From NCBI RefSeq assembly GCF_003856835.1, contig NZ_CP034145.1:434001-498000 (forward strand): a DNA stretch of 64,000 nt, written 5' to 3'. The notes beneath the pieces were generated by a model. The model saw only the letters and a list, made by a program, of their open reading frames with translations. It had not been told where the DNA came from and ran no database searches. The DNA is from Haloplanus aerogenes (lineage in GTDB: Archaea; Halobacteriota; Halobacteria; Halobacteriales; Haloferacaceae). Positions 33,719 through 49,377 of the stretch are shown here, piece by piece. The position numbers and the translations under genes were made by a program. The first letter of the stretch is position 1. Every line of letters begins with the position of its first letter.

Positions 33719-34042
33719 TTAGTCTTCCTCCATCAGGTCGATACCGATGGCTCGCTTGATCTGCTCGCGCAGGCCGCCGCTGCCGGCGCCGCCACCGAGG
33801 GTGACGAGCACCGGCTCGATGCTCCCCTCGACGGCTTCCCGAGCGTTCCGGGAGAGATGCGCCATGTCATCGTCGTGCATCACGACGATGCCGACGTCGT
33901 CGTCGTCGAGCGTCCGCATGACGGCGTCGTCGAGCTCCTCGTCTTTCTGTTCGTTCGGTACGTTCTCGAACTTCCGTACGCCCGCGAGTCGGAAGCCCGT
34001 CGTGAAGTCGGGGCTCCCGATGACGGCGATTTCCTGGCTCAT
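33719..34042 (-). CDS. atpF: A-type ATP synthase subunit F
   Basis: The 107-residue CheY-like central-stalk subunit starts [20 protein letters not shown], with [14 protein letters not shown] in the middle. It contacts subunit D in the rotor. It overlaps atpC by four bases at its start and ends one base before the atpA ATG. Confidence 0.95.
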
Positions 34043-35088
34043 AGGATCACCAGTTCCTCCTCGATTTCCTCGTCGGATAGGCCGGCTTCACGGCCCCGGG
34101 CGATGGCGCGGATGTTGTCCACCTCGCGCTCCTTGGCGAGGATGTAGGAGATGACCGGCGCCACCGACAGCGGGTGGACGAAGCCGAGCTGCTCCGAGTA
34201 TTCGAGCAGTGCCGCGTCGAGCGCCCGCTCGAACGAGATGAGGCTGTCCGCCTCCTCGAACTCGTCGAGCGCGTCGGAGAGCTTGTCACCGTACGTGCTC
34301 TCACGGATCGTCGCGACGAGTTCGTCGACGTTCGACGCCAGCGCGTTCAGCTCGCTCGCGGAGAAGAGCCGACCGCCCTCGATGAAGTACTCCGAGGGGT
34401 CGACGTCGGCGCCGCTCCGGGCCAGCCGAAGTGCGTTCCGCGCGTTCCGGAAGTCGATTTCGGCCTGCAGAAATTCGCGGTACGTCTCGGTCGCTTCCCC
34501 GACCTGCAGCTCCGACAGCAACTGCTCGTAGAAGGCGCGGTCGACCGCGTTCTCGAGCGGCACGAGCACGCCGCCTTCCTCGTAGTCGTCGAACGCGTCG
34601 CGGAGCGGGTCTCCGAACATCGTCCGGTCGAGCAGGTCGATGGCTTCCTCGATGGACCCCGCGTCGAGCAGGCGGTCGAGCAGGCGGTCGTCCAGTTCGC
34701 CTGCGCGGATGAGGTCCGTCTCCACGCCGTCGCGGTCCGCGCCGGAGTAGATTCCGCGCAGGACCGTCTTGACGTTCCACGCGTCGAACTTCCGGAGGTA
34801 TCGAGCGATCAGATCGTACAGGCGGCCGTCCGCCCACGCCAACAGGTCGTTGAAGTGTTTCGCCAGATTCCGGTTGAGCGCGTACTCGATGAGGTCGACC
34901 CCCGAGTGGCGCGCCCCGAGCGCGTTGATCTCGCGCTCGTACTCCGACTCCTCCATGAAGCGGGCGATCTCCGACGGCCCCATGCGGACGAGCTTCCGAT
35001 AATCGTCGTCGCTAAAGAGCGCCGCGCGGCGTGACCGCACGCGGGCGGTGACGTACTCCGGGTTCGAACTGCCGGGGCTCGCGCTCAT
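34039..35088 (-). CDS. atpC: A-type ATP synthase subunit C
   Basis: The 349-residue V_ATPase C/AC39 family protein couples the central stalk to the membrane ring. Family features are YVTARVRSRRAALFSDDDYR, RYLRKFDAWNVKTVLRGIYS and FVHPLSVAPVISYILAKERE, then VDNIRAIARGRE. It is fully helical and of normal length, with four-base overlaps to atpE and atpF. Confidence 0.95.
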   Translation of the reverse strand: MSASPGSSNPEYVTARVRSRRAALFSDDDYRKLVRMGPSEIARFMEESEYEREINALGARHSGVDLIEYALNRNLAKHFNDLLAWADGRLYDLIARYLRKFDAWNVKTVLRGIYSGADRDGVETDLIRAGELDDRLLDRLLDAGSIEEAIDLLDRTMFGDPLRDAFDDYEEGGVLVPLENAVDRAFYEQLLSELQVGEATETYREFLQAEIDFRNARNALRLARSGADVDPSEYFIEGGRLFSASELNALASNVDELVATIRESTYGDKLSDALDEFEEADSLISFERALDAALLEYSEQLGFVHPLSVAPVISYILAKEREVDNIRAIARGREAGLSDEEIEEELVIL

Positions 35089-35666
35089 CGCTCGAACAGT
35101 CGGTTACTCAGTTCCTTCAAGTTGTCCTCCCAGACCGTCTCGAGGATCGAGTCGAAGGTGTTGTTCACGCGAACGCGCGATTCCTCGCTCTCGACGACGA
35201 CGCCGCCGAGGCAGTCGTGTTCCCCGGCGACGCTGAAGCCCTCGTACTCCTCGAGCAGGTCTTCGAGCAGTTCCTGATCGTCCGCCCGGCCGTAGACGGA
35301 GACCGACTCGTTATCGTCGAACTCCTCGGCGGCTTCGTCGAGGAGCGCGGCGGTCAGCGATCGACGGCGTTCGCCGTCGATGTCCGCGATGGCCGCTTCG
35401 GCCGCTTCGCGGACCTCTTCTAGGGCGTCGCGACGGGCCTCCAGCCGAGCCTGCTTGGCTTCGAGCTTCGCGCTGGAGATGGTCTGTTCGCGCCGCTGTT
35501 CGATCTCGCGTTCGACCTCGGCCTCACGCTCTTCGTGGATCTCCTCCGCGTCGGCCTCGGCGTCGGCGATGATCTCCTCGGCGCGCTCCTCGCCCTCTTC
35601 GCGGATTTCCTCCGCACGCGCGCGGGCCTCGTCTCGAATGTCCTCGGCGACTGTTTCTAAACTCAT
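35085..35666 (-). CDS. atpE: A-type ATP synthase subunit E (peripheral stalk)
   Basis: The 193-residue protein has a long charged coiled coil (residues 1-95, rich in Glu/Ala/Arg) and a globular C-terminal domain with DCLGGVVVESEESRVRVNNT, typical of V/A-type subunit E. It pairs with subunit H to form the peripheral stalk. Confidence 0.95.
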   Translation of the reverse strand: MSLETVAEDIRDEARARAEEIREEGEERAEEIIADAEADAEEIHEEREAEVEREIEQRREQTISSAKLEAKQARLEARRDALEEVREAAEAAIADIDGERRRSLTAALLDEAAEEFDDNESVSVYGRADDQELLEDLLEEYEGFSVAGEHDCLGGVVVESEESRVRVNNTFDSILETVWEDNLKELSNRLFER

Positions 35667-35685
35667 GATGAGAGGGAGGGGGTGT

Positions 35686-35946
35686 TCAGACCAGGAACAC
35701 GACGACCAGCGCGAGGATCACGAGAGTCTCCGGCAGGACGGTGAAAATCAGTCCCTGCACGAAGAGATCCTGGTCCTCGGCGACGGCGCCGACGGCGGCC
35801 GCACCGATGCCACGCTCGGCGTATCCCGCGCCGAACGCCGCGAGCCCGACGGCCAGTGCCGCGGCGGCTGTGGGCGGAATGGCCGGTGCCGCTGCCCCTT
35901 CTGCCTGCAGTACGACGGATGCCAGCTGCGTTGCGAGTTCGTACAT
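35686..35946 (-). CDS. atpK: A-type ATP synthase proteolipid subunit K (c ring)
   Basis: The 86-residue single-hairpin proteolipid has two helices (AAALAVGLAAFGAGYAERGIG and LIFTVLPETLVILALVVVFLV); E in LPETL is the proton carrier. An N-terminal stretch rich in Ala/Pro precedes helix 1. The gene is preceded by an unusually long 191-nt gap and may have its own promoter, which would suit the high copy number of the c subunit. Confidence 0.94.
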   Translation of the reverse strand: MYELATQLASVVLQAEGAAAPAIPPTAAAALAVGLAAFGAGYAERGIGAAAVGAVAEDQDLFVQGLIFTVLPETLVILALVVVFLV

Positions 35947-36137
35947 TGTGTGTAGTGGTGTGGAGTCCGTTTAGTCGTCTCCGAACATCCCGTAGTTGCC
36001 TCTACGACTGCCATAAAGCTTCCCAAACCGATTCGCGAAAATTGCCGAATACGCGGCCGAAACCCGTCTCTACTCGGTCGTCGCGCGTCAGAGAGTAACA
36101 CGGTCGTGGGGACGGTGCGTGCCCCGAACCGACCGCG
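35947..36137 (-). promoter_or_regulatory. Long atpI-atpK gap with candidate internal promoter
   Basis: Most neighbours in this operon overlap or nearly touch, but here 191 nt contain no gene. On the minus strand CTTTATGG (36011-36018) resembles a TATA box and would give an mRNA with a leader of roughly 40 nt before atpK. Confidence 0.4.
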
Positions 36138-38378
36138 TCAGTCCTCGGTAGTGTACGTCCGCTCGTACCCGAACGGTTCGTACTCCCGACCGCCACCCTG
36201 GTAGAACTTCCCGAAGAACTCCACGTACTCGAGACGCACCGCCTGCAGGCCGGCGCTCGTCACGCCGAGTGCGAGGACGAGTGCGTGGCCGAGAACGAGG
36301 ACGAGGAGGCCGACGATCAGCATCGCCGGACCGGAGTGGACCAGTCCGCCGAACATGATCTCGGTCACTTCGTGGCCATGAGCCATGTCGCCCACGTGGG
36401 GCATGTGGCCGAGGCCGAAGTGGAACGCCGCCTCCGACCCTTCGCCGGTGACGTACACGCCGAAGAAGAGCAGGTTGACCGTGAAGGCCATCCCCGCCTT
36501 CGCCAGCAGCACGGCGGCGATCCGGGTGTACGACAGCGCGTTCACCAGCACGTTCAGGAACTCAATGATCTCGATTGGCTCGCCGACCGCGAGGAGGACG
36601 AGACCGATCACGAACGCGGCGAGGCCGGCCAACCCGACCAGTTCGGGGAAGCCGTTGAAGCCGAGGGCGTAGGTGGCGTGGATCGCCTCGGCGCCCTCGG
36701 GCGCCGCGCCCGAGCCATCGAAGATAGTGAACAGGAAACCGGGCTTGTAGCTCACGGCGCTCAGCGAGAAGATCCACACCCACAGCCCGTTGAGCATGAG
36801 GATCCACGACCCGCTCTCGTAGAGGGCGTGCTTGACGTCGTGGTGTTCGAGGTTCTCGACGAAGTCGAAGACGTAGCCCACGTTGAGGTGGGCAATACCC
36901 ATCAAGATGCTCACGACGAGCCACGTCAGGGCGTAGGACTTCCCTGCGGGGGAGAGCCCCTTCTCCATGGGCGGGTGGGCCATGCCGAGCGCACCCTCCC
37001 AGAAGTACGTCGAGATCAGGTGCAGGCCGAAAATCTCGCCGTAGAGGATGCCAAAGAGCATCGTGAAGAGGCCAGCGAAGATCGTCACGCCACCCATGCT
37101 CTTGAACGCATCACTGTCGAATTTGGAGTAGAGGAAGTAGCCGATCAGGGTGTAGAGCGCGCCGTAGCCGAGGTCCCCGATCATGAAGCCGAAGAAGGCC
37201 GGGAAGGTCAGGAAGAGAACGACCGTCGGGTCGAACTCGTCGTATTTCGGCCGGCTGACGGCTTCGGTGAGGACTTCGAACGGTTTGACGACGCCGGGGT
37301 TGTTCGCGATGACCGGTGGCGAGTCGTCGCGCATCACGACCGAACCGCCGCCGTCGGCGCGGATCTCCTCCCCGCCGTCGGCGGCCGCGGCGCCCTCGCC
37401 GCTCCCGGCGGTGACGTCCTCGTGGACCTCGGACCCGTCGGATTTGAACGCCGCGCGTTCGATCTCTTCGACCTCGACGTGATCACCGACGGCGTCCGTG
37501 ATGGCCGCCGCGAAGCCGGTGTACTCCTCGGTCGGAATCCACCCTTCCGCGACGAACGCGTTGTCGGTGGTCGCAAAGGAGAGCGGCGCCTCGCGTTTCT
37601 GTACGTCGATGGAGAGTTTCTCCTCGGCGGCGAGCAGGAAGCCCGCGGCGTCGAGTTTCACCTCGTCGAGTTCGTCCTCGACGGTGCGAAGCTTGGATTC
37701 GAGTTGCTGTTGCCGGTGTTCGAGATCCGCGACGTACTCCTCGGGCGAGCCCTCGGCGTCCGGGACCTCCAGCGCCGTGAAGTCAACGCCGACAAGCGCG
37801 TCCGTCAGCACGTCCTCGTCGGCGGCGTCGGCCGGACGTGCGAAGATGGCGACGACGCTCTCCTCGGCGAAGATCTCGACGGCGCCGAGTCCGTCGGCGT
37901 CGACGACGGCGCGCTCGACGGCCTCGCGTTTCCCTTCACCGACGACGACATCCAGCGTGTCGTATCCCGAGAGCAGGTCGAGGTCGATGCCGAGCGTCGC
38001 GAACGGCTCGGCGCTCGAAATCTTCTCCTCGATGCTCCCGAGTTCCGTCCGGATCTCGTCCCGGCGGTCCTCGAGTTCGTTGACGCGCTCGCGGATCCCC
38101 TCGAGTTCCTCCTCGAGGGCGTCGTCGGTGACGATGCGCGTCGGGCCGGCGTCCTCGCCGTCGACGTCGAGGATGCTCTCGATGGAGCGGACCGTCACCA
38201 GTTTCTCGGAGGCTTCCTCGGCGCCGTCGATCGGGTTGCCCGGTTCGAACCCTTCCCAGGACCCGTCGTACTCGGTGACGTGGAGCAGGTTGCAGTCGTG
38301 GACTGCCTCGACGACGTCGTCCATGACCCCCTTTGATCCCGTCACCGAGACCTTGCTCATTCGCTCAGGTCTGAGCAT
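36138..38378 (-). CDS. atpI: A-type ATP synthase subunit I (membrane stator)
   Basis: The 746-residue protein has a cytosolic N-terminal half with coiled coils (about 90-130 and 210-250) and a C-terminal half with seven to eight transmembrane helices. Conserved signatures are FMIGDLGYGALYTLIGYFLY, FGILYGEIFGLHLI and LNVLVNALSYTRIAAVLLAK (the Arg of the proton half-channels). The start MLRPERMSK is chosen because GGAGG precedes that ATG by about six bases; an internal ATG six codons later is possible. It overlaps the atpH stop. Confidence 0.94.
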   Translation of the reverse strand: MLRPERMSKVSVTGSKGVMDDVVEAVHDCNLLHVTEYDGSWEGFEPGNPIDGAEEASEKLVTVRSIESILDVDGEDAGPTRIVTDDALEEELEGIRERVNELEDRRDEIRTELGSIEEKISSAEPFATLGIDLDLLSGYDTLDVVVGEGKREAVERAVVDADGLGAVEIFAEESVVAIFARPADAADEDVLTDALVGVDFTALEVPDAEGSPEEYVADLEHRQQQLESKLRTVEDELDEVKLDAAGFLLAAEEKLSIDVQKREAPLSFATTDNAFVAEGWIPTEEYTGFAAAITDAVGDHVEVEEIERAAFKSDGSEVHEDVTAGSGEGAAAADGGEEIRADGGGSVVMRDDSPPVIANNPGVVKPFEVLTEAVSRPKYDEFDPTVVLFLTFPAFFGFMIGDLGYGALYTLIGYFLYSKFDSDAFKSMGGVTIFAGLFTMLFGILYGEIFGLHLISTYFWEGALGMAHPPMEKGLSPAGKSYALTWLVVSILMGIAHLNVGYVFDFVENLEHHDVKHALYESGSWILMLNGLWVWIFSLSAVSYKPGFLFTIFDGSGAAPEGAEAIHATYALGFNGFPELVGLAGLAAFVIGLVLLAVGEPIEIIEFLNVLVNALSYTRIAAVLLAKAGMAFTVNLLFFGVYVTGEGSEAAFHFGLGHMPHVGDMAHGHEVTEIMFGGLVHSGPAMLIVGLLVLVLGHALVLALGVTSAGLQAVRLEYVEFFGKFYQGGGREYEPFGYERTYTTED

Positions 38379-39358: not shown

Positions 39359-39373
39359 AGCCCTCTCTTTTGC

Positions 39374-39592
39374 CTACGCCAGCGGCGTGCGCTCCACGAC
39401 CGTCCCAGTCCCACCTTTTACTCGGGGTTCGCTGACGCTCACCCCTCGCAAAAGCTGGACCAAAACCTACGCTAACGGCGTGCGCTCCACGACCGTCCCA
39501 GTCCCACCTTTTACTCGGGGTTCGCTGACGCTCACCCCTCGCAAAAGCTGGACCAAAACCTACGCTAACGGCGTGCGCTCCACGACCGTCCC
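39374..39592. repeat. 93-bp direct tandem repeat, about 2.3 copies
   Basis: The landmark ggcgtgcgctcc recurs at 39384, 39477 and 39570, exactly 93 bp apart, and the units are nearly identical. Each unit contains a copy of the last codons of the radical SAM gene plus an imperfect stem-loop (from cttttactcgggg to cccctcgcaaaag). The third unit is cut where the live gene continues. The array lies between two convergent genes and may act as repeated terminators. Confidence 0.9.
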
Positions 39593-40570
39593 ATCGACGG
39601 TCGGATACTGCTCCACGATCTCCCCCTCGCCCACGTCGCCCTCGTCGACCATCTCCTCTAGCAGCCACCACGCGAGTTCGACGTGGTCGGACTTGACGGT
39701 GTAGAACTCCTCGGGCACGCCGAGGTCCCGCAGGCGCTCCTCGGTCACCCACGTCTTGCCGTAGACGAGGGTGCCGTCGTCGGTCACCTCGTCGAACTCC
39801 CGGCGGATCTGGCGGGCCATCCGCTTCAGTCGACGGCGATGCTGGGCGGCGTCCTTGAACACCGAGGTGCAGAAGTACACCCGGTCGTGGTCGCCCATCA
39901 CGTCGAGAATCTCCTCTTTGGGGGACTCGACCGCGCTCATGTGGCCCTCGCGGAGGTCGTAGCCCTCCTCCTGCATCCGGCGGTAGTTGCCGTCGGACAT
40001 CTCGAACTCGTTGATGTTACAGAAGTCGGCGGCGCCCTCGTCCAGAAACTCCAGAAATTCGGGTTCGGCGCGGATGCCCGGAATCTCGAACGCTGGGGTC
40101 AGTCCCTCCTCGCGGGCGATGTAGAGGATGTCCTCCCACTCGGTGCCGTGGAGGTCGCCCCACAGGTCGAGCGGCGGGTGGAAGCGGATCTCGTCGAGAC
40201 CCGCCTCGGAGAGGCGGCGCATGTTCTCGCGCCCGCCGGTGATGCCGGTGTAGAGGTGGGTGTGGTGGTCCTCGCCGAACTCGTCTTTCAGGAGGGAGAG
40301 GTAGTGACAGGTCCGATCGAGGGATTCCTGGGGTTCGCCGCCGGTGATGGAGGTGCCGAGGGCGTTCATCCGGTGGGCTTCGGTCAACACGTCCTCGTCG
40401 CTCTCGACTTGCCGCTCGTTGGCGTAGACGGTGTCGACGTTCTTGCGGTTCTCCCCGAGCGGACAGTAGAAGCAGTCGCGCTGGTCGCAGTAGCCGTAGA
40501 CGAACAGCACCATCTTCCCGCCCTTGGCGCACTGTTCACAGCCCTTCGAGATCATTCGTTGTCGGTACAT
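39560..40570 (-). CDS. Radical SAM protein with CX4CX2C-type cluster motif
   Basis: The protein has 336 residues. The N-terminus has an extra Cys pair (KGCEQCAKGGKM), then VYGYCDQRDCFYCPLGE, in which the first two Cys of the cluster motif are four residues apart instead of three. ITGGEPQES is the SAM-binding GGE motif, and the barrel continues through DEIRFHPPL and PAFEIPGIRAE. It is probably a cytoplasmic radical SAM enzyme of unknown substrate. The start MYRQRM was chosen as the first Met of the conserved region. The 3' end is duplicated in the adjacent tandem repeat. Confidence 0.8.
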   Translation of the reverse strand: MYRQRMISKGCEQCAKGGKMVLFVYGYCDQRDCFYCPLGENRKNVDTVYANERQVESDEDVLTEAHRMNALGTSITGGEPQESLDRTCHYLSLLKDEFGEDHHTHLYTGITGGRENMRRLSEAGLDEIRFHPPLDLWGDLHGTEWEDILYIAREEGLTPAFEIPGIRAEPEFLEFLDEGAADFCNINEFEMSDGNYRRMQEEGYDLREGHMSAVESPKEEILDVMGDHDRVYFCTSVFKDAAQHRRRLKRMARQIRREFDEVTDDGTLVYGKTWVTEERLRDLGVPEEFYTVKSDHVELAWWLLEEMVDEGDVGEGEIVEQYPTVDGTVVERTPLA

Positions 40571-41275: not shown

Positions 41276-41704
41276 ATGACGGTCGTCAGCGTCTCGATGC
41301 CCGAAGAGTTAGTGGAGCGGATCGACGCGTTCGCGAAGGAACACGGTTACACCGGCCGGAGCGAAGTCGTCCGCGAGGCGTCACGGAACCTGCTCGGCGA
41401 GTTCGAGGACAAGCGACTGGAGGACCGCGACCTCATGGCGGTCGTGACAGTCATCTTCGATTACGAGACGACGAGCGTCGAGGAGCGGATGATGGGCCTC
41501 CGTCACGACTACGAGGGCCTCGTCGTCGCCAACTTCCACAGCCACGTCGGCTCCCACTACTGCATGGAACTGTTCGTCCTCGAAGGGCAGTTGGAGACAA
41601 TCTCGACGTTCGTCGGCAAGATTCGCGCGACGCAGGACACCCTCAGCGTCGACTACTCGGTGATGCCCGTCGACGAGTTCGGGCCGTTCGCGTCGCCCGA
41701 ATAG
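41276..41704 (+). CDS. nikR: NikR-like nickel-responsive regulator
   Basis: The 142-residue protein has a ribbon-helix-helix domain ([33 protein letters not shown]) and an ACT-like metal-binding domain. The NikR nickel ligands are all present: H in LRHDYEG, and H-x-H with downstream Cys in [16 protein letters not shown]. It should be a tetrameric DNA-binding protein repressing nickel uptake when nickel is high. A NicO-type transporter is at the window start, 41 kb away. Confidence 0.9.
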
Positions 41705-41722: not shown

Positions 41723-42559
41723 CTATTCGACGACGATGGCGCCTTTCGCACCGAGCGTGTGGTGGGGGGCGCAGGCGTACCGGTAGACGCCGGGCTCCTC
41801 GAACGTGTGTTCGAACTGCACCCCGGGTTTCGTCTCCACCGCGCTCCCGATGTCGGCGTCTTCGAACGCGATCTGGTGCGGGCCGCCAGTCCACACCCAG
41901 CGGACGGTCGTTCCCGTGGAGACGCGGGCCGCCGGCGGCGAGAACGTGAACTCGCTCTCGCCTTCCGCGGAGCCGACGGTGACGATGGGCGAGGGGTAGT
42001 CCCGCCAGTCGACCACCGTCCCGTCGTAAATCTCAACGTCCGCCAGCCACGCGTCGACGGCCGGATAGTCGCTCGACGGCGGGTCGGCGACGACGACGAC
42101 GCCGCGCATCCCTTCGTCCCGTGACGGCTCCGAGACGTAGCGGTACGTGCCACGGTCCTCGAACCTGTGGGTGAACGTGTGGCCGTGGATGGCGACGGGG
42201 TCGCCACTGTCGAACGAGTCGCCAAGGGCGACGACGTTCGCGGGGTCGCCGTGGCCGCTCCACTCCCACGTGACGGTCGTGCCCGGCGGGACGCGGACGC
42301 CGGCGGGGCCGAACGCGGCGTCGCCGTGATCCGTGCCGAGGCTGTCGCCGACGGTCACCGTCGGCTCGTCGCCGTCGCCGTAGCGTTCGATCACCCCCTC
42401 GTAGCCGTTCGCGTCGGCCAGCCAGTCGTCGAGGCAGCCGGTCGACGCTTCTGTTTCGGTGGCTTCCTGCCCCCGTGCCAGACAGCCGGCGACCGAGCCG
42501 GTGCCGAGAAGGGCAGTTGCCACGAACGTTCGCCGGGACCAATCGGACGGTTCGTGCAT
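41723..42559 (-). CDS. Two-domain halocyanin-like lipoprotein with degenerate copper sites
   Basis: The 278-residue protein has a Tat-type lipoprotein signal (SRRTFVATALLGTGSVAGC). Two tandem cupredoxin domains follow. Domain 1 (about 45-165) has lost His (DPANVV), Cys and the second His (YVSEPSRDEGM). Domain 2 (about 170-278) keeps His (GGPHQIAFED), Cys and His (CAPHHTLGAKG), but the axial Met position is Ala. A GGAGGTG Shine-Dalgarno seven bases before this ATG decides the start. It probably sits outside the membrane and may transfer electrons or copper. Confidence 0.85.
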   Translation of the reverse strand: MHEPSDWSRRTFVATALLGTGSVAGCLARGQEATETEASTGCLDDWLADANGYEGVIERYGDGDEPTVTVGDSLGTDHGDAAFGPAGVRVPPGTTVTWEWSGHGDPANVVALGDSFDSGDPVAIHGHTFTHRFEDRGTYRYVSEPSRDEGMRGVVVVADPPSSDYPAVDAWLADVEIYDGTVVDWRDYPSPIVTVGSAEGESEFTFSPPAARVSTGTTVRWVWTGGPHQIAFEDADIGSAVETKPGVQFEHTFEEPGVYRYACAPHHTLGAKGAIVVE

Positions 42560-42685: not shown

Positions 42686-43402
42686 ATGACCGACCTCCGC
42701 TATCTCCCCGACGCCGACGACGTGACCGAGTTCGAGGCGACCGTCACCGAGACGGGCGACGACTACGTGGTCCTCGACGGCACTTACTTCTACCCCGGTG
42801 GCGGCGGGCAACCCGCGGATCGGGGGACGCTCTCGTGGTCCGGTGGCGAGGCGGTCGTCGTCGACGCCCGGAAGAACCACGGCGACGTGCGTCACTACGT
42901 CGACGCGGCCGATGGCGACCTGCCGGCCGAGGGGACGACCGTCACCGGCCGGATCGACGCCGAGCGCCGCGACCGTCTCACCCGGCTCCACACCGCCCAG
43001 CACGTCCTCTCGCGGGTCGTTCTCGACGAGTTCGGGGCGGCGACGGTCGGCAACGGCCTGACCGTCGACGGCGGATGGGTCGAGTTCGAGGGCGCCGACC
43101 TCGGCGACGACCAGGTGGCGACCGTCGAACGCCTGACGAACGCGGCCATCGAGCGCGACCTCCCCGTTCAGAAGGTCGAACGCCCCCGCTCGGCGGTCGA
43201 AGAGGTGGTGCCCGACGGGCGTGCCCAGATCGACGCGATTCCCGACTTCGTCGACCCGATGCGCGTCGTCGAAATCGACGACTTCGACGTCTGTCCCTGC
43301 GGCGGGACGCACGTCGACCGTCTCGGCGAGGTGGGGACCGTCCGAATCACGGATCGGTCGCGGTCCGACGGCGTCGAACGACTCGCGTTCGACGTGGCGT
43401 GA
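42686..43402 (+). CDS. alaX: Alanyl-tRNA editing protein AlaX
   Basis: The 238-residue stand-alone editing domain related to the C-terminal part of AlaRS hydrolyses mischarged Ser- or Gly-tRNA(Ala). Zinc ligands are visible as HTAQH (about 107-111) and CPCGGTH near residue 205, and FYPGGGGQPADRG is the Gly-rich editing-site motif that groups it with AlaX-M. It is a free-standing cytoplasmic protein; no synthetase is nearby. Confidence 0.92.
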   Translation: MTDLRYLPDADDVTEFEATVTETGDDYVVLDGTYFYPGGGGQPADRGTLSWSGGEAVVVDARKNHGDVRHYVDAADGDLPAEGTTVTGRIDAERRDRLTRLHTAQHVLSRVVLDEFGAATVGNGLTVDGGWVEFEGADLGDDQVATVERLTNAAIERDLPVQKVERPRSAVEEVVPDGRAQIDAIPDFVDPMRVVEIDDFDVCPCGGTHVDRLGEVGTVRITDRSRSDGVERLAFDVA

Positions 43403-46522: not shown

Positions 46523-48454
46523 TCAGTACCGCAGGAGGCGCATTCCGTTGAGGATCACCGCGAGGACGCTCGCCTCGTGGACGAGCATCCCGACCGCGAG
46601 GTGGACGTAACTCGTCAGCACGCCCGCGAGCAAGATGCCGACGGTCAGAGTCGCGAGGCCGACGTTCTCGGCGACGTTCCACCGGGCCGCCTTGCTGAGT
46701 CCGATGGCGTAGGGGATACGCTCTAGGCCGTCGGCCATCAGCGCCATATCCGCCGTCTCGATGGCGGTGTCGGTGCCCGCGGCACCCATGGCGATGCCCA
46801 CGTCGGCCGTCGCCAGCGACGGTGCGTCGTTGATGCCGTCCCCGACCATGGCGACGACGTGGCCGTCCGCCCGGAACGCCTCGATCACGGTCTGTTTCTC
46901 TTCGGGAAGGAGTTCGGCGTGGACGGTGTCGATTCCGACTTCGCCAGCAACTGCGCGGGCGGTGCGCTCGTTGTCGCCGGTGAGCATCACCGTCTCGACG
47001 CCGGCGTCCCGAAGCGCGCGGACGACGCCGGGTGCGGCCTCACGGAGTTCGTCGCGGAGGGCGACGGCGCCGATCACGTCGCCGTCGAGGGCGACGTGGA
47101 CGGCCGTCTCCCCGCGTTCCTCTCGCTCGCGGACGTACACGAACGCCGCGTCGGGGACGGGAATCCCGCGGTCGTCGAGGAGTGCGCGGTTCCCGACGAC
47201 GAGTTCGCGGCCGTCGTGGTGGGCGATCACGCCTTTGCCCGGCACGACGTCGAAGTCGTCGGGGTCGGGGAGCGACGTGCCGGTGACGACGGTGCCGCCG
47301 TCGGTTCGGGTTGCACTTCGGCGTTCGGCGGCCTCGCGGATCGCGCTCCCGAGGTGGTGTTCGCTCCGTCGCTCCGCGATGGCGGCGATCCGCAGGACGT
47401 GGTCGGCGTCGTGCCCGAACCCCGTCACGTCGGCCACCGCCGTTTCGCCGCGGGTGAGCGTCCCCGTCTTGTCGAAGGCGACGAGGTCGATTTTTCCCGC
47501 CCGTTCGAGATGCTCCCCGCCTTTCATGAGGACGCCGTTGCGCGCGGCGTTGCCGATGGCGGAGACGACGCTGACGGGCGGGCCGATGACGAGCGCGCCG
47601 GGACAGCCGATGACGAGCAGGGTCAGCGACAGCAACGCGTCCCGGGTGACGACGAACGCACCGACCGACAGCAGGACGATGCCCGGCGTGTAGTACGTCG
47701 CGAAGCGGTCGAGGAGGCGCTCGGTCGGCGACTGGGCCTCCTGGGCCGCCTCGACGCGACGGATGATACGCTGGAGCGTCGTGTCCGATCCGGCGCCGGT
47801 CGTCCGCACGTCCAGCGCCCCCGCTTGGTTGATCGTCCCGGCGTACACCTCGTCGCCCGCCCGCTTGTGGACGGGCGCGCTCTCGCCGGTCACGGGTGCC
47901 TGATCGACGGCGCTCACGGGTTCCCCGTTCGCTCGAGGGGTCTCCGACCCCTCGCTGCTCTCGCCGTCCACCACCTCGCCGTCGACCGGAATCTTCTCGC
48001 CGGGAGCGACGAGGACGACTTCGCCCGGGTCCACGTCGCGGGCGGGCACTTCGACGGTGTCGCCGTCGCGGCGAACGAGCGCCGTGTCGGGCGTCAGCTC
48101 CAGCAGTTCCTCGAGGGCGGCGCGCGTCTTGCGCATCGTCCGCCCTTCGAGGTAACTCCCCAGCGAGAACAGGAAGACGACGGCCGCGGCCTCCCAGTAG
48201 GCGCCGATGGCGACGGCGCCGACGGCCGCCAGCGTCACCAGCGTCTTGATGCCGAGCGTCCGGTTCCTGACCTCGCTGACGGCCACCCTCGCGATATCGT
48301 AGCCGCCCACGACCGCCGCGAGGACCAGTATCGCGGCGCTCGCGGCGTCGAACGACGTGACGTAGCCGAGGCTCCACCCGCCGGCGTACAGGAGGCCGCT
48401 CGCGCCGGTCACGACGGCCGTGCGGTGCTTCCGGTAGTATCGGCGCCAGTGCAT
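46523..48454 (-). CDS. P1B-type metal ATPase with CPG membrane motif
   Basis: The 643-residue heavy-metal-type P-type ATPase has the actuator motif VTGES, phosphorylation motif DKTGTLT, and hinge MVGDGINDAPSLATADVG. The helix-4 motif is GCPGALVIGPPVS (CPG instead of CPC), and the last helix has HEASVLAVILNGMRLL, close to the HEGxT motif of P1B-4 cobalt/iron-type pumps. There is no N-terminal metal-binding domain; an HMA protein is encoded separately four bases upstream. The actuator has a Ser/Glu-rich insertion before TGES. The metal is not assignable. Confidence 0.88.
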   Translation of the reverse strand: MHWRRYYRKHRTAVVTGASGLLYAGGWSLGYVTSFDAASAAILVLAAVVGGYDIARVAVSEVRNRTLGIKTLVTLAAVGAVAIGAYWEAAAVVFLFSLGSYLEGRTMRKTRAALEELLELTPDTALVRRDGDTVEVPARDVDPGEVVLVAPGEKIPVDGEVVDGESSEGSETPRANGEPVSAVDQAPVTGESAPVHKRAGDEVYAGTINQAGALDVRTTGAGSDTTLQRIIRRVEAAQEAQSPTERLLDRFATYYTPGIVLLSVGAFVVTRDALLSLTLLVIGCPGALVIGPPVSVVSAIGNAARNGVLMKGGEHLERAGKIDLVAFDKTGTLTRGETAVADVTGFGHDADHVLRIAAIAERRSEHHLGSAIREAAERRSATRTDGGTVVTGTSLPDPDDFDVVPGKGVIAHHDGRELVVGNRALLDDRGIPVPDAAFVYVREREERGETAVHVALDGDVIGAVALRDELREAAPGVVRALRDAGVETVMLTGDNERTARAVAGEVGIDTVHAELLPEEKQTVIEAFRADGHVVAMVGDGINDAPSLATADVGIAMGAAGTDTAIETADMALMADGLERIPYAIGLSKAARWNVAENVGLATLTVGILLAGVLTSYVHLAVGMLVHEASVLAVILNGMRLLRY

Positions 48455-48458
48455 CGCC

Positions 48459-48674
48459 CTACGCGAGTCGGGGCGTGTAACCCTGACTCTCGATGGCAGA
48501 CGCGAACGCGTCCGGGTCGGTCACGCCGGGATCGTACGCGATTTCGACCCGACCGGTCGTGTAGTACACCTCGACATCTTCGACACCCTCGGCCCGCGCC
48601 AGCGTCCGTTCGACGTTGCTGGCACAGGTCGGACAGTCGAAGTCCACGACGCGGAACTGCGTGGTTTCGCTCAT
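48459..48674 (-). CDS. Stand-alone HMA metal-binding protein (metallochaperone-like)
   Basis: The 71-residue ferredoxin-fold protein has the metal site DCPTCASNVERTL and the C-terminal strand VEIAYDPGVTDPDAFASAIE. It is the domain missing from the ATPase gene directly downstream and probably delivers metal to it. The start at MSETTQF is preferred; a TATA box lies about 30-37 nt upstream. Confidence 0.9.
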   Translation of the reverse strand: MSETTQFRVVDFDCPTCASNVERTLARAEGVEDVEVYYTTGRVEIAYDPGVTDPDAFASAIESQGYTPRLA

Positions 48675-48702
48675 TGTGGCTTCGACTACGCCCCCGCATC
48701 CC

Positions 48703-48711
48703 ATATATATT
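48703..48711 (-). promoter_or_regulatory. TATA box of the HMA-ATPase operon
   Basis: On the minus strand the sequence reads taatatatatgg around 48703-48711, 29-37 nt before the HMA ATG. The HTH regulator gene is divergent from here, and the 160-bp region between them is a likely place for its operator. Confidence 0.6.
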
Positions 48712-48834
48712 ACTTAAATGATATGTTTGGATGGTCGCACGGGTCGTCGAACCGGACCGACGGGTGGTCTAGACGGCCGTCAACGTTGGCGTTCGGCTCA
48801 AACGCTAAACGTGTCGTCGTCGTACAGCAGTGGC

Positions 48835-49377
48835 ATGAGCGAGTTCACTGCGGATGTCGAACTGTCGGATATCGCCGTCCGCGACACGAACGTCTCCGCC
48901 GCGCTGGACGAGCCGCTCCGGGCCATGATCCTGGATCTGCTCGCCGACGAGGCGCTGACGGTCGCGGCGATTCACGACGACCTGGCGACTCGCGGATTCG
49001 ACCGCACGGAGAACACCGTCCGCCACCACGTCAACGAACTCCGTGACGCCGGGCTCGTGGAGGTGGCACGCCTCGAAGAGCGCCAGGGCGCGACGACGAA
49101 ATACTACCGCGCGAACACGGTCGTCCTCTCCTATTCGCTGCCCGAGTCGAGCGAGAGGGTCGTCGACGAGATGGCCGGGCGAATCGAACCGCAGGTGGCC
49201 GACCTCGTCGCGACGCTTCGGGACGAGTACGCCGACGAGCTAGACGCTATCGCGGCCGAGATGGCACCCTGTCAGCACTGCCGCAATCAGAAATACGAGA
49301 CTTACCTCCTGTTGACCGTCCTCCGGCGCGCGTTTGCGCGCGCCGAGACTTACTCCACGATGTCGACGACCTCGTAG
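48835..49377 (+). CDS. ArsR-like winged-HTH regulator with CxxC motif
   Basis: The 180-residue protein has an N-terminal winged HTH (ALDEPLRAMILDLLADEALT; ENTVRHHVNELRDAGLVEV), a long helical region, and a C-terminal PCQHCRNQKYETY motif whose Cys pair may bind metal. It is divergent from the HMA-ATPase operon, which makes it the likely regulator of that metal pump (inference). It overlaps the next convergent gene by 28 bases. Confidence 0.8.
   Translation: MSEFTADVELSDIAVRDTNVSAALDEPLRAMILDLLADEALTVAAIHDDLATRGFDRTENTVRHHVNELRDAGLVEVARLEERQGATTKYYRANTVVLSYSLPESSERVVDEMAGRIEPQVADLVATLRDEYADELDAIAAEMAPCQHCRNQKYETYLLLTVLRRAFARAETYSTMSTTS

Follow-up and report, generated by a model that had tools for sequence, protein, structure and literature searches.

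Halocyanins have been described as haloarchaeal one-electron carriers (PMC8305020, excerpt). The window, a 64,000-nucleotide stretch of Haloplanus aerogenes DNA (NZ_CP034145.1, positions 434,001 to 498,000), encodes a protein, P0001, with two halocyanin domains, one of which lacks the residues that hold copper in a type-1 site while the other lacks the usual axial Met. What can such a protein do, and does the pattern reflect a gene in decay or a trait that is maintained?

P0001 is a predicted lipoprotein with two halocyanin domains

The gene had been placed at 41723-42559 in an initial annotation; the coordinates are exact, and the open reading frame (ORF) lies on the minus strand. The gene and its parts are listed below.

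41723..42559, minus strand: tandem halocyanin lipoprotein P0001, 278 amino acids (ORF translation; TIGR03102, 191.1 bits, and Pfam Copper-bind, 77.9 bits, two stretches each)
42482..42559, minus strand: twin-arginine signal (SRRTF), then lipobox-like AGC with Cys26, residues 1-26 (sequence; Cys26 codon 42482-42484)
42089..42430, minus strand: domain 1, halocyanin domain without His, Cys, His (TIGR03102, 96.1 bits)
41726..42058, minus strand: domain 2, halocyanin domain with His, Cys, His and with Ala replacing the axial Met (TIGR03102, 105.2 bits; model fold similar to plastocyanins)

When we searched all six frames of the whole genome, each domain separately exceeded the curated TIGR03102 cut-off of 93.8 bits. 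We take the N terminus to be a Tat lipoprotein signal, a prediction made from the familiar haloarchaeal motif. Cysteines occur only at positions 26, 42, and 263, and methionines only at position 1 (the start) and position 151. A recent duplication as the origin of the two domains was rejected, as they are 39% identical to one another.

The model of domain 2 (pLDDT 77.5, pTM 0.75) predicts a cupredoxin, plastocyanin-like beta sandwich fold. It matched a cupredoxin domain from a multicopper oxidase of Nitrosopumilus (9cck, Z 12.0); the plastocyanin 1bxu (Z 11.5, rmsd 2.1, 88 residues aligned); and the Nitrosopumilus purple cupredoxin 5fc9 (Z 10.3, rmsd 2.6, 86 residues aligned, 29% identity), which was also among the sequence matches. 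Matches to two engineered amicyanins, M98A (2idq, Z 9.5) and M98Q (2idt, Z 9.8), were also obtained, and the titles of both entries name Cu(II) forms. The 2idq title indicates that a cupredoxin with Ala at the axial place can hold Cu(II). A full-length model (mean pLDDT 54.3), built from two sequences, contained strands in domain 1 and was too poor for domain placement.

Domain 1 has lost three copper ligands and domain 2 the axial ligand

Alignment with other halocyanins assigned the following residues to the ligand positions.

42239..42241, minus strand: Ala107, at the place of the first His ligand of domain 1
42131..42133, minus strand: Ser143 (codon TCG), at the place of the Cys ligand of domain 1
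42122..42124, minus strand: Ser146, at the place of the second His ligand of domain 1
42107..42109, minus strand: Met151, at the axial place of domain 1; the sole Met besides the start
41876..41878, minus strand: His228, first His of domain 2
41771..41773, minus strand: Cys263 of domain 2
41762..41764, minus strand: His266, second His of domain 2
41747..41749, minus strand: Ala271 (codon GCG), at the axial Met place of domain 2

The trigonal plane of His, Cys, and His that defines a type-1 site is thus absent from domain 1 and present in domain 2. For domain 1, this bears out the initial annotation, which had described all three positions as lost, reading Ala or Asn for the first His. The residue at that place is Ala107; Asn108 is the Asn that usually follows the first His, found in 73 of the 74 proteins of the clade described below. 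The annotation did not mention Met151, which falls in the axial column, so that domain 1 retains one ligand position.

For domain 2, the annotation was likewise correct that His, Cys, and His persist and that Ala has replaced Met, removing the usual axial side chain. The spacing of these residues, C-x2-H-x4-X, is that of Natronomonas pharaonis halocyanin (P39442), whose ligands are H110, C148, H151, and M156 (Table 2 of PMC517927, excerpt). The PROSITE pattern PS00196, as printed in the same source, ends in [MQ], and comparison by eye with the printed pattern showed that Ala271 fails this end. In fungal laccase, however, the type-1 site has no axial ligand (PMC11881046, excerpt), and Ala271 therefore leaves type-1 copper possible. 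Among the other halocyanin-like domains of the same genome, 13 of 16 have the full set of His, Cys, His, and Met (HCHM), and the rest read HCHF, YCHM, and, in a partial domain, -CHM; the 16 include a weak match, L017, that dropped out of a second scan.

We considered, by alignment, whether another residue could take the axial role, the possibility that the initial annotation had named as contrary to its reading. A different Met within domain 2 was rejected, as the domain is without any Met; with Met only at positions 1 and 151, no other Met can substitute. Comparing the His, Cys, and Met residues of domain 2 between clade members with axial Ala and those with Met, we found only one, His267, that is common in the former and rare in the latter. 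It is present in six of the seven Ala proteins (Arg in L019), and a fixed replacement by His, Cys, or Met was therefore rejected. Some residues of the Asp, Glu, Tyr, Asn, Ser, and Thr types also differ between Ala and Met proteins in the alignment, at positions 164, 176, 178, 190, 197, 199, 201, 202, 205, 207, and 243.

The ligand pattern is conserved in Haloplanus

Ser in place of Cys in domain 1 and Ala in place of Met in domain 2 were found in all seven intact Haloplanus orthologs. As seven genomes share these residues, a sequencing or frame error was rejected. At the other two domain 1 positions the orthologs vary, with Ala (six) or Glu (one) for the first His and Ser (five) or Thr (two) for the second.

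Using a custom script for the Nei-Gojobori method, we compared the 21 pairs formed by the seven orthologs. Mean dN/dS was 0.317 for domain 1, 0.217 for domain 2, and 0.850 for the signal and linker. In Haloplanus, purifying selection acts on both domains; the pattern is conserved and is not one of decay.

The gene is nonetheless dispensable in the genus. Five of the 12 Haloplanus genomes, of which one (G077) is 79% complete, had no intact copy among the matches listed. In G076, a relic of domain 2 (L059, L133) lies between the nikR-like and alaX-like genes that flank the intact orthologs, with Arg at the positions of both the Cys and the second His; there was no separate match to domain 1. In G070 and G077, the gap between these genes is about 230 and about 100 bases, respectively, with no match to the halocyanin gene inside, and in G068 and G078 no match to the halocyanin gene adjoins nikR. 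Three Haloplanus genomes carry a second, distinct member of the clade, with Gln at the axial place (L060-L062).

Loss of the domain 1 Cys characterizes a haloarchaeal clade

We collected relatives from 170 genomes of the family and from 391 genomes drawn from the class. Matches of at least 290 bits were found in 64 of the 391 class genomes, and their 67 rows (counted by eye) were all taken into the analysis. Three broken copies (L059, L121, and L127) were excluded before counting, as were proteins in which the number of domain matches was not two and rows whose last 150-160 residues duplicate another row. A tree built from 94 two-domain halocyanins placed 74 of them in one clade (support 100/99). 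The clade has at least 74 members, a count from which 13 further full-length matches of 40-46% identity were left out.

In domain 1, the Cys is replaced by Ser in 71 of the 74, the exceptions being L112, L113, and L099. Under the rooting used, L112 and L113 are the first to diverge; the next branch is weak (support 89/72). A two-state count of the Cys position gave two changes on the tree, and since L099 is nested inside the clade, it has either regained its Cys or retained it through several losses elsewhere. The Cys-column codons comprise 53 TCN, 18 AGY, and three Cys codons, and change class at least four times. Judged by their codons, the serines fit multiple losses, or passage through Cys or Thr. 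Met151 is kept in 72 of the 74. His is found at position 107 in 40 and at position 146 in 33, and the core residues Trp98, Trp100, Phe116, Ser118, Gly119, and Gly137 are present in all 74. Single-base changes of a Cys codon also yield Arg, Gly, Phe, Tyr, or Trp. Ser in every one of the 71 domains without Cys, together with the retention of Met151, is unlike free decay.

L099 (6001-7050, minus strand) has the Cys codon TGT and a full HCHM set in domain 1 while nested among Ser members, and may represent a regained copper site.

In domain 2, His228 and Cys263 are each present in 69 of the 74 proteins and His266 in all. Position 271 varies, with Met in 39, Gln in 13, His in 12, Ala in seven, and Gly in three, and it has changed at least 11 times within the clade. 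Ala is confined to the seven Haloplanus orthologs, whose sister group (L027-L029, another genus, support 99/99) has Gln. The initial annotation had proposed a comparison with two-domain halocyanins of relatives. The pattern it described is real, but replacement of Cys by Ser in domain 1 characterizes this haloarchaeal clade and is not peculiar to the gene, and the axial change in domain 2, also real, is one of several replacements at position 271.

Five proteins (L073 and L075-L078) have also lost the Cys and first His of domain 2, in one event on the tree and with their reading frames open; their axial Met is counted within the 39. As these frames are open despite the losses, copper is inessential to the family's function in those five. 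These proteins, from genera g21 and g12, have Ser for Cys in both domains and, to judge from these residues, are perhaps wholly copper-free.

Further observations concern Cys42 and the wider set. Cys42 (42434-42436), the second Cys of mature P0001, lies before domain 1 and is present in all seven Haloplanus orthologs. A counterpart aligned in two of the 13 Gln proteins, and none appeared among the listed residues of the 34 Met proteins with an intact domain 2; L027-L029 have QCL or RCL at this spot. Outside the clade, 55 of 61 domains in the loci examined are HCHM, in a set of loci that were selected for likeness or adjacency to P0001 and so are not a fair sample. A separate group of two-domain halocyanins outside the clade (L122-L124 and L129) has Gly at the axial place of domain 2, with Asp for the second His in three of the four.

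The gene lies between a NikR-like regulator and an AlaX-like gene

Two genes flank P0001.

41276..41704, plus strand: NikR-like regulator, convergent neighbor (Pfam NikR_C, 74.4 bits, and RHH_1, 30.6 bits, both above cut-offs; below the NCBIfam NikR cut-offs)
42686..43402, plus strand: alanyl-tRNA editing (AlaX-like) protein, divergent neighbor (family profiles; same place at orthologous Haloplanus loci)

The NikR-like gene occupies the same place at the orthologous Haloplanus loci except L054 (in G069). Neither immediate neighbor is respiratory; the nearest energy genes, for subunits of an A-type ATP synthase (34039-38360), are more than 3 kb away. No NO or denitrification enzyme was found among the Haloplanus neighbors scanned against Pfam. 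As a functional partner, the NikR-like regulator is unlikely, since it is convergent and remains in Haloplanus genomes where no halocyanin copy adjoins it. The NikR-like protein is 92-98% identical in 10 of 11 other Haloplanus genomes and 79% identical in G069, and its gene is more conserved than the neighboring halocyanin and AlaX genes.

Elsewhere in the clade, the setting differs. Among the 58 clade loci with flanks, 30 (L064, L068, L071, and L091-L117) have an HTH_20 regulator divergent from the tandem halocyanin; the other 28, Haloplanus included, are without this pairing. At the 30 loci we also found photolyase-related genes (22), single-domain HCHM halocyanins (21), DUF7521 membrane proteins (19), UbiB/ABC1 genes (17), and, at the locus edge, heavy-metal P-type ATPases (14). 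These labels rest on similarity to a few reference genes and a custom simple gene finder, with Pfam names checked on single representatives. Genome groups f1, f3, and f7 all contain the pairing, which probably represents the older arrangement. It suggests handling of redox or of copper, favors neither, and is a candidate regulon for one or the other.

Elsewhere in the window, a heavy-metal P-type ATPase gene (46523-48412, minus strand) has no HMA match of its own and adjoins a small HMA-domain gene (48459-48704, minus strand), and an HTH_20 regulator (48811-49377, plus strand) lies near this ATPase. Separately, a tandem array at 39373-39593 (93-base unit, 2.4 copies, 98% matches) reaches the end of a radical SAM gene at 39560.

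Discussion

We favor, with middling confidence, the reading that P0001 is a lipid-anchored, halocyanin-type one-electron carrier in which domain 1 is copper-free and domain 2 provides the sole copper site. Domain 1, beside the membrane anchor, would be a cupredoxin module retained for its fold, as a spacer or docking surface. Of the two roles proposed for this domain in the initial annotation, scaffold or regulatory, the first fits the loss of its three copper-holding residues and the purifying selection on it. Domain 2, at the C terminus, would hold the only copper in the trigonal plane of His228, Cys263, and His266. We infer that it is loaded with copper and carries electrons. Since the axial place faces Ala271, it may be empty or be occupied by a backbone carbonyl, water, or chloride. 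By exchanging Met, Gln, His, Ala, and Gly at this place, the clade would adjust the potential of its one site to suit each lineage's partner. Against this reading weigh the five proteins that have lost Cys and the first His of domain 2, the non-respiratory neighbors in Haloplanus, and the five Haloplanus genomes with no intact copy among the matches listed.

How far would Ala271 shift the potential? The effect of the axial ligand on the color and potential of type-1 copper is known largely from engineered mutants. When Met121 of azurin is replaced by a hydrophobic or small residue, the changes range from +7 mV (Gly) to +138 mV (Ile) (PMC5698706, excerpt). The initial annotation was right about the missing axial side chain; its expectation of an unusual potential calls for caution, given this range. 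By analogy with the azurin mutants, we expect a modest rise, with a potential somewhat higher than in a Met-ligated halocyanin and no new chemistry.

Other readings of the same protein have to be weighed. Domain 2 could be an open-site copper center whose axial place binds an outside ligand such as water, molar chloride, NO, or another small molecule, comparable to the archaeal purple cupredoxin Nmar1307. Ala271 leaves room for such a ligand, His267 being the sole new candidate among His, Cys, and Met; 5fc9 is among both the fold and the sequence matches of domain 2; and three further clade members have Gly at this place. On the other hand, the Pfam-scanned Haloplanus neighbors include no enzyme of NO metabolism or denitrification, and Met, Gln, or His fills the axial place elsewhere in the clade, so openness is not the function of the family. 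We regard this reading as unlikely. An extension of it, which we consider equally doubtful, is that the open axial place of the Ala and Gly members takes up chloride or another outside ligand at the cell surface, that the site senses or uses the medium, and that the clade forms a natural counterpart of the azurin series. Alternatively, the family may consist of surface proteins that handle copper or redox state as a store, sensor, or scaffold, for which electron transfer would be unneeded and ligands could be lost piecemeal. The loss of Cys from domain 1 of 71 proteins and from domain 2 of five is consistent with this, as are the HTH_20 loci with their DUF7521 proteins and heavy-metal ATPases, and the NikR-like regulator that adjoins the Haloplanus gene. 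Yet the HCHM halocyanins, UbiB/ABC1, and photolyase-related genes at the HTH_20 loci also fit redox, the NikR-like neighbor is an unlikely partner for the reasons given above, and 69 of the 74 proteins retain the domain 2 Cys. This reading, too, seems improbable to us.

Least likely of all, and in our judgment very improbable, is that the gene is a dispensable paralog on its way out, with decaying metal sites. The relic in G076, the nikR-alaX intervals without the gene in G070 and G077, the lack of a match beside nikR in G068 and G078, and two broken copies in other parts of the clade (L121 and L127) would fit such a course. Against it stand seven intact orthologs with low dN/dS in both domains, Ser143 in 71 of the 71 proteins without the Cys, and Met151 in nearly all.

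The preferred reading, a single-copper carrier with a copper-free domain, sets P0001 beside several known systems. It shares with halocyanin P39442 the domain family, the ligand spacing, the haloarchaeal origin, and a predicted lipid anchor, the last given for P39442 in the title of a 1994 paper cited in PMC8305020 (excerpt). P0001 differs from P39442 in having two domains, of which domain 1 is without His, Cys, and His and domain 2 has Ala for the axial Met. Like P0001, the Nitrosopumilus maritimus purple cupredoxin Nmar1307 (5FC9) is an archaeal protein with a single-copper cupredoxin fold. The title of the 5FC9 paper names an open binding site, and Nmar1307 oxidizes NO (PMC6790972, excerpt); it has a single domain and shows 29% identity in the fold alignment. 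Engineered amicyanin M98A (2IDQ) and the azurin Met121 mutants share with P0001 Ala or another non-Met axial residue in a His2Cys cupredoxin. Those proteins were made in the laboratory, whereas the change in P0001 is natural and found in all seven intact Haloplanus orthologs. Natural replacement or absence of the axial Met, as in this clade, is also found in stellacyanin and auracyanin, both with axial Gln, as in 13 of the 74 clade members, and in fungal laccase (laccase and stellacyanin, PMC11881046, excerpt). These belong to other families; P0001 has Ala, and other clade members have His or Gly. Domain 1 resembles the early nodulin-like phytocyanins (ENODLs), whose cupredoxin domains are without copper ligands (PMC10048054, excerpt). 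ENODLs are plant proteins, and in P0001 the empty domain is joined to a partner with His, Cys, and His intact.

Empty cupredoxin domains and axial replacement are thus each already known. What appears to be new is that a single tandem protein combines them, and that one clade has natural axial His, Ala, and Gly: in the titles and abstract openings of the literature on halocyanins and lost-ligand tandem cupredoxins, a scope that leaves subscription papers mostly outside, we saw no comparable clade. In the halocyanin literature, we found no study of the copper content, spectrum, or potential of any member.

In this clade, naturally occurring orthologs and paralogs carry Met, Gln, His, Ala, or Gly at the axial position against a related background, a natural experiment in tuning a copper site. 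A copper-free control domain is built in, and the surface proteins of these organisms function at molar chloride concentrations. Domains without type-1 copper residues also carry the label "halocyanin domain-containing protein," and domain-based counts of haloarchaeal electron carriers may therefore be too high.
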